A stretch of 5,532 nt of DNA from Candidatus Altarchaeum sp. (GTDB lineage Archaea > Altiarchaeota > Altiarchaeia > Altiarchaeales > Altiarchaeaceae), in the NCBI GenBank assembly GCA_018260755.1, contig JAGTWP010000075.1, forward strand, positions 1 through 5,532. Reading direction: 5' to 3'. Below are positions 2,794 to 5,532 of this stretch, one piece after another. Position numbers and translations under genes: made by a program. The notes beneath the pieces were generated by a model. It did not search any database. It saw nothing but the letters and a program-made list of their open reading frames with translations, and was not told the DNA's origin. How positions within the stretch are numbered: the stretch's first letter is position 1; each line of letters starts with the position of its first letter.

Positions 2794-3699
2794 ATGACAG
2801 ATATTTCTATAATTATAAGAACAAAAAATGAGGGCAAAAGTATATTAAAAACGTTGGAGAAAATTTCATCTCAAAAGATAGATAAAACATTTGAGATAAT
2901 TATTGTGGATTCTGGTTCAATAGATAATACAATAGAGGTTGCAAAAAAATTCGGGAGTAAAATATTAAAAATTCCTCCTCAAAAATTTACTTATCCTTAT
3001 GCATTGAACTTTGGAACAAATAATGCTAAAGGAAAACTTATTGTTTATCTGTCAGCACATTGTCCAGCAGTAAATGATTATTGGCTTTACTATCTTACAA
3101 AACATTTTTCTGATCCTGATGTTGTAGGAGTATTTGGAAGAGAAATCCCAATAAAATGTTTAAATCCTGTGTATGAATATTTTCAGATTTATGAAATGTT
3201 TCCTTCTGATGGAAATACACCTGTTTTATTTTCAAATGTAAATTCATGTATTAGAAAGGATGTATGGAAAAAATACAAATTTGATGAGAGAGTATCAAAA
3301 AGGCATAGAAAATTTCTTATAGGGGAGGATCAACTTTGGGCAAATACTGTAAAGGAAAAGGGTTATAAAATAATATATGAGCCACAATCTGTTGTTTATC
3401 ATTCTCACAAATTTTCTTTGAAAGGGTTAAGTAGGATGTATTCGGGGGGATACTTCTCAAGTGAATTATCATTTACTTCGTCAGTTTTAAGGGAAAAAAG
3501 TTTTTGGAAACAAATAAATGTTTATATCAAAAAACAAATAAATGTTTTTTATTATCTCGTAAAGAATCATTATTTTAAAGCAATTATATGGGATTTTCCT
3601 TTTTCAATATTTTTCAATATTTTTTGGTTTTACCTTGGAAAAAGAGATAGAAAAAAAGAGGACGCATTAAATAAATTTTTTGAAAATAATCCATCCTAG
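2794..3699 (+). CDS. Family 2 glycosyltransferase (GT-A fold)
   Basis: The 301-residue protein starts with the GT2 nucleotide-sugar fold: ISIIIRTKNEG (4-14), EIIIVDSGSIDNT (34-46) with Asp39, and LIVYLSAHCPAVNDYW (82-97) at the place of the usual DxD metal motif. SNVNSCIRKDVW (147-158) and GEDQLWA (177-183), the likely catalytic-base region, follow, then a C-terminal region with hydrophobic stretches (about 255-285) and a basic tail. It probably adds a sugar to a growing lipid-linked repeat unit at the inner membrane face; donor and acceptor are unknown. The ATG at 2794 is the first start after an in-frame TAG at 2785-2787. A weak AGGAA (2786-2790) lies only three bases upstream. An unusual short tandem repeat occurs near residues 239-254. 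The gene ends in TAG; reading through would add only seven residues before TAA at 3718. Its last 33 bases overlap the convergent flippase remnant. Confidence 0.9.
   Translation: MTDISIIIRTKNEGKSILKTLEKISSQKIDKTFEIIIVDSGSIDNTIEVAKKFGSKILKIPPQKFTYPYALNFGTNNAKGKLIVYLSAHCPAVNDYWLYYLTKHFSDPDVVGVFGREIPIKCLNPVYEYFQIYEMFPSDGNTPVLFSNVNSCIRKDVWKKYKFDERVSKRHRKFLIGEDQLWANTVKEKGYKIIYEPQSVVYHSHKFSLKGLSRMYSGGYFSSELSFTSSVLREKSFWKQINVYIKKQINVFYYLVKNHYFKAIIWDFPFSIFFNIFWFYLGKRDRKKEDALNKFFENNPS
3508..3547 (+). repeat. In-frame 16-bp direct repeat inside the GT2 gene
   Basis: The 16-mer AAACAAATAAATGTTT occurs at 3508-3523 and again at 3532-3547, a period of 24 bases, giving the eight-residue tandem KQINVYIK / KQINVFYY at residues 239-254. 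The exact multiple of three keeps the frame. It looks like a small slippage duplication in a non-catalytic region. Confidence 0.75.
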
Positions 3700-3920
3700 A
3701 CCAATCAATTGTCCGATTAAGTAGCCATACGCGACACCTAACAATTCAAACTGAAATATCAAGAGAGTTCCAACAGTTAAACTAGATAAAGAGATTAGAA
3801 CATTAACTATGACAAATTCTTTAAGTTCTTTTTTTATATTTTTAGTCGTTAAATAAACTTGATTAATAGCAAAGGGGATAAGTGTAACTGCCAGTACTTG
3901 CATAAGATATGTAGGCACTA
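3667..3920 (-). pseudogene. Oligosaccharide flippase (COG2244 type), C-terminal piece beyond the IS insertion
   Basis: On the minus strand the frame begins at the insertion site (Ile codon shared with the TA at 3919-3920), continues VPTYLMQVLAVTLIPFAINQ and ends at TAA (3669-3667), giving about 84 residues. It carries three predicted membrane segments: around YLMQVLAVTLIPFAINQVYL, FVIVNVLISLSSLTVGTLLIF and LLGVAYGYLIGQLIGLGWIIF. These match the last helices of Wzx-like polysaccharide transporters of the MATE/MOP superfamily, which move lipid-linked repeat units across the membrane. A GTG at 3918 could in principle start a fragment, but a lone three-helix tail would not be functional. It continues exactly in frame from the piece at 5402-5057 once the IS and one TA are removed. 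It overlaps the convergent glycosyltransferase by 33 bases. Confidence 0.8.
3919..3920. repeat. TA target-site duplication, left copy
   Basis: TA directly outside the left inverted repeat of the IS630 element; the partner copy is at 5055-5056. Insertion at TA with its duplication is the rule for the IS630/Tc1/mariner group. Because both sides read TATA, the exact border could shift by two bases without changing the reconstruction. Confidence 0.75.
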
Positions 3921-3950
3921 TACTTCACAACTTCACAGTTTGAGCTTTTT
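3921..3950 (+). repeat. IS630 left terminal inverted repeat
   Basis: Read inward on the plus strand from 3921, this 30-base end matches the opposite end (5054 to 5025, minus strand) at 21 of 30 positions without gaps, including the outer TACT, an inner CAA, and a shared CTTTTT at positions 25-30. The transposase stop codon (TGA, minus strand 3927-3925) lies inside it. Confidence 0.8.
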
Positions 3951-4524
3951 TAAATGTCTGAAATCGCAATGTGAGCAAAGAGTCAAGATCTTGTTTGTAG
4001 GTAGTATTTGTTTGTTCAAGGCAGTTTGTAATGGCTTTCTTGAAACTTCCAAATTCTGAATAATATTTTGAATAAAGACATTTCTTCTTAACAAATTTCC
4101 ATAGCCGCTCGATCTGATTTAAATTAGGAGAGTATGATGGAAGATAAAGTAGCTCTATCTTAAGAGATTTTGCTAAATTTTGTACAAGTGCACACTTTTG
4201 ATACCGGGCATTATCTAAAACAATAGTTATTGGAACGTCATACTTTAACTGTGAAATACGCCTCAGTAACTCACAAAAACTCTGTGCATTGATATAAGTG
4301 TCATTAGTAACAGTTATTAATTCATGCGTAACTGCATTTATCGCACCGAGAACATTGAATCGCTGTCTACCTGAAGGGGCTTGAATAAACATTTTTGTGA
4401 AACACCACAGAATCCCTAAAAAAGGGGCTAATACGAAATGCGCGGCGTCAACAAAAAAAACGACTCTTTGACCCTTCTTAGATTCTTCAAGACGTGGTTC
4501 TAATTCGTTCTTTAAAAAAACTTC
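3925..4524 (-). pseudogene. IS630 transposase, C-terminal DDE catalytic part after the in-frame TAG
   Basis: This is the same reading frame as the N-terminal part, continuing directly after the TAG for 199 codons. In full-length numbering it holds the RNase H-like catalytic triad: Asp174 in VVFFVDAAHF, Asp252 in ITIVLDNARYQK and Glu287 in SYSPNLNQIERLWKFVKK, with 34 residues between the last two (D,D34E) as in IS630/Tc1 enzymes. It ends in AQTVKL and TGA inside the left inverted repeat. The first ATG after the TAG is codon 193 (4392-4390), beyond Asp174, and no ATG, GTG or TTG lies between the TAG and Asp174. Separate translation of this part would therefore give a protein lacking its first catalytic residue, and activity needs readthrough or an intact copy elsewhere. 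Confidence 0.85.
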
Positions 4525-4527
4525 CTA
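4525..4527 (-). other. In-frame TAG codon splitting the IS630 transposase
   Basis: TAG at codon 148 of a 347-codon frame, in the context GAA AAA TAG GAA GTT. Protein similarity to the family continues smoothly on both sides (MIPAKADAEK before, EVFLKNELEPRLEE after) with no insertion, deletion or frameshift. A single C-to-T change from a CAG glutamine codon would produce it. Decoding as pyrrolysine is possible only if the host has the pyl system, which this window cannot show. Confidence 0.85.
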
Positions 4528-4968
4528 TTTTTCGGCATCTGCTTTTGCAGGAATCATGCCTACCTTTCGAGGTTTCATTCCAATGGATTTAAGAAATACC
4601 CTTACACTATTTTCGCTGAGTTTAATCCCTGTTAATTCCTCTATCTTGGCCGTTGCTTCTTTAACAGTGGCTGGTGGATGCTCACGAAAATAATCTTCTA
4701 AAGTTGCTGAGTACTGTTTTAGTTTACTCTGCGGCTGATAGAATTTTATTTTTTTCAACGCCACAACACCGCCTTGTTGATACTCTCGAATATAATTACG
4801 CAAAGTGTTTGACGAGATTCCAGTCAGACGACATATATCTTTATGTTTTATTCCCTGGCTCTTCAGATAAAGGGCTTCCATTTTGCGTTGAACATGCGAA
4901 TGCGGGTAATGAAAACGTTCGTATCTCAACATCTTAATATCCTCCTCCGTAAAAAATATTTTGATCAT
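4525..4968 (-). CDS. IS630 transposase, N-terminal DNA-binding part (ends at in-frame TAG)
   Basis: This 147-residue piece holds the DNA-recognition half of the transposase. A first helix-turn-helix lies at about residues 38-63 (QGIKHKDICRLTGISSNTLR then NYIREY), and a second winged-helix region at about 89-140 (including EDYFREHPPATVKEATAKIE and SENSVRVFLKSIGMKPRKVG). The two would bind the terminal inverted repeats. The ATG at 4968 fits the family N-terminus as I recall it (FTEEDIKxLRYERFHxPH). Met13 (4932-4930) is the only start with a clear ribosome binding site (GGAGGAGG, eight bases upstream), so a shorter start is possible. Translation stops at TAG 4527-4525 before the catalytic domain. 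Alone this piece could bind IS ends without cutting, which might act as an inhibitor; that is inference. Confidence 0.8.
   Translation of the reverse strand: MIKIFFTEEDIKMLRYERFHYPHSHVQRKMEALYLKSQGIKHKDICRLTGISSNTLRNYIREYQQGGVVALKKIKFYQPQSKLKQYSATLEDYFREHPPATVKEATAKIEELTGIKLSENSVRVFLKSIGMKPRKVGMIPAKADAEK
4938..4948 (-). promoter_or_regulatory. Strong Shine-Dalgarno-like site inside the transposase start region
   Basis: On the minus strand ACGGAGGAGG precedes the ATG of codon 13 (4932-4930) by about eight bases, whereas the upstream ATG at 4968 has only AAGAAAGATTAA before it. It encodes Thr-Glu-Glu-Asp in the longer frame, so it may be coincidence, but it is the best ribosome binding site in the window and bears on the choice of start. 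Confidence 0.4.
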
Positions 4969-5024
4969 TTAATCTTTCTTTTAAACATATTTTTAAATAT
5001 AATTATAATTATACTTCATTTAAT

Positions 5025-5054
5025 AAAAAGTGCAATCTTTGCCATTGAGCAGTA
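5025..5054 (-). repeat. IS630 right terminal inverted repeat
   Basis: Read inward on the minus strand from 5054, this end begins TACTGCTCAATGGCAAAGAT and runs to a CTTTTT; it pairs with the left end at 21 of 30 positions. It lies upstream of the transposase start, with an AT-rich 56-base stretch (4969-5024) between them that could hold the transposase promoter. Confidence 0.8.
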
Positions 5055-5056
5055 TA
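5055..5056. repeat. TA target-site duplication, right copy
   Basis: TA directly outside the right inverted repeat, within a local TATATA. Deleting 3921-5056 joins 3920 to 5057 and yields a minus-strand frame reading Gly-Lys-Glu-Tyr-Ile-Val-Pro-Thr-Tyr, continuous flippase sequence. Confidence 0.75.
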
Positions 5057-5402
5057 TATACTCTTTTCCAAATAAAGATAAGATAAATTCTCCAAACATA
5101 GAAAATAAAGCAATTCCTCCAAAAACTACTAACAATGAAAGTTTTATTGCTTTTCTCTCATGTTTTGATGTATCCCTTTCTTTGTGTGATCCTTCCATTA
5201 AAAATGCGCCATTTATTAATGACACAAAATCACAAAACATTAAGAATATCATCCAAGGTATGTAAAAGTATGCAACATTTTGTGCGGGTAATAAATTTAG
5301 AATTACTAATGGAAACAGTAATCCTGGAATACGCAAGAATATTGTAGCGATCTGATTTGCAAAAGTAAATGCAAATGTCTTTTTTAATCCATAACTTTGC
5401 AC

Positions 5403-5532
5403 TTTTTAAGTAATAGGTAAAATATTTCTGTGTGTTTTTTTCTTTAACAATTATTTTTTAAGGTTATAAATATTTAATTCAAATTACTTAATTAAGTAAT
5501 ATATAATAAAATAAAAAAGATAAAATGAAAAA
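5403..5532. other. AT-rich region without a supported gene, carrying an 18-bp palindrome
   Basis: No frame on either strand looks like protein for any useful length. On the minus strand a 19-codon open stretch ending in a frame offset from the flippase (reading IFYLLLKKCKV) could be a frameshifted scrap of the flippase, but it is too short to judge. A perfect palindrome, ATTACTTAATTAAGTAAT, occupies 5483-5500. An ATG on the plus strand at 5525-5527 (ATGAAAAA) might open another gene past the window edge, but only two full codons are visible. Confidence 0.4.

Follow-up and report, generated by a model that had tools for sequence, protein, structure and literature searches.

An in-frame amber codon likely inactivates an IS630-family transposase of Candidatus Altarchaeum

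The stretch of DNA analysed here (5,532 nucleotides, hereafter the window) carries an IS630-family insertion sequence whose transposase frame is interrupted by one TAG codon. We consider it very likely (probability about 0.94) that this element lies in the remnant of a flippase gene, that its codon for Gln148 was later changed to TAG by a C-to-T mutation and that no active transposase is made from the present copy. An IS630-family element would have jumped into a TA site of a flippase-like gene remnant within an archaeal surface-polysaccharide gene cluster and, afterwards, a TAG stop would have arisen by one C-to-T change in the conserved codon for Gln148, for which CAG is the simplest candidate. 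Translation would then end after 147 residues and only the DNA-binding part would remain, so that the copy would be unable to make active transposase. An IS630 element inactivated by nonsense is of an ordinary kind, and no unusual genetic code is involved.

The initial annotation had described one continuous 347-codon D,D34E transposase frame with a lone TAG at codon 148 and no start codon between this TAG and Asp174, and each of these points was borne out. Translation of the minus strand, with TAG translated as a residue, gives a single open frame ended by TGA in which codon 148 is the sole internal stop (Table 1); a homologous frame of this length is far beyond chance. The catalytic triad (D174, D252 and E287, with D-34-E spacing) is intact, and the frame is matched by Pfam DDE_3 (4.4e-27) and, when the TAG is read through, by the NCBIfam IS630 transposase model NF033545 (206.7 bits for a cut-off of 100). 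The second helix-turn-helix match, HTH_33, is interrupted close to its end by the TAG. Scanning the frame from codon 148 to D174 revealed no ATG, GTG or TTG, and the next in-frame start is at position 4392, downstream of D174. An active full-length transposase, which is expected of autonomous copies only and is not needed for membership among IS630 DNA elements, is not predicted for this copy, given the TAG at codon 148, the lack of a start before D174 and the failure to find a suppressing tRNA or synthetase. The element shares with the IS630 family (Tc1/mariner-like, D,D34E) the domain order and the D-34-E triad, as well as the TA target duplication, the terminal inverted repeats and a size of ~1.1 kb, and its transposase is 74-75% identical to the IS630 copies of ANME-1 and ANME-2 archaea. 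It differs from the family by a nonsense codon at a conserved Gln.

Table 1. Features of the IS630-family element and of its transposase frame in the window.
Feature	Coordinates	Strand	Basis
IS630-family insertion sequence, 1134 bp	3921..5054	-	TACT... ends, inverted repeat, TA flanks, related elements
TA target-site duplication, transposase 5' side	5055..5056	.	comparison with related elements
TA target-site duplication, transposase 3' side	3919..3920	.	comparison with related elements
IS630 transposase frame, 347 codons + TGA, one TAG inside	3925..4968	-	translation, Pfam, NCBIfam
TAG, codon 148; conserved Gln (CAG/CAA) in relatives	4525..4527	-	translation and alignment of relatives
Predicted translated product, 147 aa, helix-turn-helix DNA-binding part, without catalytic residues	4528..4968	-	HTH_23 26-71; HTH_33 101-154
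Catalytic part with D174, D252 and E287, predicted to be untranslated; no in-frame start ahead of D174	3925..4524	-	ORF list and triad

The alignment at codon 148 suggested by the initial annotation was made with 80 relatives represented by their best tblastn segment, 75 of which could be aligned over this codon. Gln was found in 61 of the 75 (31 CAG and 30 CAA), including all 28 relatives with at least 60% identity, and the others are either remote relatives or copies with local shifts or decay. TAG was present at this position in none of the 75, indicating that an in-frame UAG is not conserved among the homologues. The nearest full-length relatives (74-75% protein identity), mostly from ANME archaea, carry CAG at codon 148, a single C-to-T step from TAG, and we infer an ancestral CAG in preference to CAA. 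Codon 148 of the immediate ancestor could not be seen directly, because the closest copies from the same genus (86-89% amino acid identity) are fragmentary or decayed and end short of it. Internal stops are found in the best tblastn segments of 22 of the 80 relatives, exactly one in 8 and at least two in 14 more; TAA, TAG and TGA all occur, and some of them stem from frameshifts that the alignment reads through. IS copies with a lone nonsense codon are thus commonplace. A scan of viral contigs for relatives of the transposase found none.

The codons located past the TAG are without decay. First, dN does not rise across the stop, being 0.19-0.21 ahead of the TAG and 0.14-0.15 past it; second, dN/dS with respect to the congeneric fragments is 0.14-0.16, so that the stop most likely arose recently. 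It would also postdate the insertion, and a full-length enzyme is presumably no longer produced. Only one copy of the element was detected in the host genome. The fragments of 86-89% identity sit in one congener (G001), which indicates that the element family moved within the host genus. In contig C19 of this congener (stretch L172, positions 11867-12485 and 4024-4061), the same IS is present as a decayed copy, together with short solo pieces of ~40-47 bp that correspond to its transposase-side end, which suggests nested or partial insertions.

The TAG might instead be an error of sequencing, of assembly or of strain mixture, the true copy being intact with a Gln codon. The host genome, archaeal by its rRNA, is a fragmented draft (78 contigs, 1.32 Mb, ~85% complete), a single base separates TAG from the expected codon, and repeated elements are typical trouble spots of such assemblies. 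Against this, the presence of one copy in the genome makes a collapse of copies less likely, and the rest of the frame shows nothing that looks erroneous. We regard such an error as improbable and rank it below a recent amber nonsense mutation; what uncertainty remains for this IS630 copy concerns a stop fixed in the population versus an artefact of the draft.

The initial annotation had also considered that pyrrolysine might be inserted at UAG, so that the transposase would be full-length and its mobility host-dependent; decoding of this kind has been proposed for some transposases of Methanosarcina. The host is an archaeon, the frame is intact and undecayed on both sides of the lone TAG, and in-frame amber transposases are on record in Methanosarcina, where certain transposases keep the amber codon from copy to copy, in hosts that carry pyl genes (PMC2933860, PMC8211752). 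The two situations share the occurrence of TAG within the frame of an archaeal transposase. In contrast to Methanosarcina, the present TAG is confined to one copy, its host has no detectable pyl genes, and relatives have Gln at this position; the remark that in-frame amber codons are a known theme in archaeal transposases thus holds for Methanosarcina and fails for the present host. The suggested search for pylS and pylBCD gave no PylS, PylB, PylC or PylD over the curated cut-off in the host genome and three congeners, within the bounds set by a ~85% complete genome whose missing part could harbour a cluster, and no PylS over the cut-off in 29 genomes of the host's class; in each control set, exactly one genome was above the cut-off. 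It is unlikely that a pyl cluster is hidden in the missing part across four genomes. Matches below these thresholds in the host had other identities: those to PylS were SepRS and the alpha and beta chains of PheRS, whereas a CofH/MqnE-like radical-SAM enzyme was the top match to PylB. The O-phosphoseryl-tRNA synthetase (SepRS; 486 bits for a cut-off of 381) is encoded at positions 1156-2625 of stretch L002 (G000:C27), and its presence makes a tRNA-dependent cysteine pathway probable in this host.

No CUA anticodon was identified with ARAGORN among 39 tRNAs genome-wide and in ~300 kb of contigs, a scope that a divergent tRNA located elsewhere could escape. A known tRNA-Pyl, whose sequence was entered as a control, was correctly called; the Pyl label given by one ARAGORN option was a relabelled Lys tRNA and was disregarded. 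TAG is an ordinary stop in the host genome: in the 287 kb of contigs that were sampled, 15 of the 193 long ORFs terminate with it, and the run from this terminal TAG to the next stop is short (median 13 codons), much like that following TAA and TGA. No PYLIS-like structure was present 3' of the TAG of the transposase, the RNA being no more structured than its shuffles (z = 0.68). The initial annotation had named missing pyl genes together with CAG or CAA in sister copies as the pattern of a plain nonsense mutation, and this is the pattern obtained, with no PylS, PylB, PylC or PylD over the cut-off in the genome or genus and CAG or CAA in relatives. With Gln in relatives and TAG conserved in none of them, decoding as pyrrolysine is very improbable, and the other option of the initial annotation, a plain nonsense mutation reducing the copy to its DNA-binding part, is preferred.

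It is just as improbable that the stop is retained on purpose, the 147-residue DNA-binding protein repressing transposition and rare read-through yielding traces of enzyme: the helix-turn-helix part is indeed kept in the truncated product, and against this stand the conservation of TAG in 0/75 relatives, the lack of a recoding structure after it and the failure to find a full-length partner copy in the genome. Read-through by a divergent amber-decoding system that escaped detection, being encoded in the 15% of the genome absent from the draft, is the least probable of all.

This IS copy is a clear example of fresh inactivation through one amber mutation, and its importance is mainly for annotation. 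Taken alone, one TAG within the frame of an archaeal transposase does not point to pyrrolysine, and both the conservation of the codon and the presence of pyl genes should be checked before pyrrolysine is inferred.

The limits of the element were set by its ends and by comparison with related elements. Both ends begin with TACT... and form an imperfect inverted repeat of ~38/36 bp; at the transposase-side end, many relatives align up to position 3919. A 9-base direct repeat, TGAAGTATA, lies near both ends and was rejected as the target duplication, as related elements place the 5' end further out, at 5054, where a normal TA duplication is seen. In silico excision of the IS together with one TA fuses the flanking ORFs 5402..5016 and 3918..3667 into one frame, ...LFGKEYIVPTYLMQVLAV..., encoding a protein of 199 residues with a weak MatE-type transporter likeness (E = 0.015, under the cut-off). 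Its hydrophobic composition and the genes around it suggest a polysaccharide flippase of which the C-terminal half is left. Genes for an FrhB-like iron-sulphur protein, a polysaccharide pyruvyl transferase and a family 2 glycosyltransferase (Pfam/NCBIfam) are present next to the IS.

On the minus strand, the ORFs 3667-3918 and 5016-5402 are pieces of one flippase-like gene divided by the IS. An N-terminal half is apparently absent from this gene: a stop lies immediately upstream of position 5402 and is followed by AT-rich non-coding DNA up to the contig end, so that the IS may have entered a gene that was a remnant by then. A perfect 12-nt inverted repeat (TAAAAAGTGCAA at 5024-5035 and TTGCACTTTTTA at 5397-5408) has one arm inside the 5' end of the IS and the other just ahead of the start of the truncated flippase; it is possibly the trace of an older IS end.
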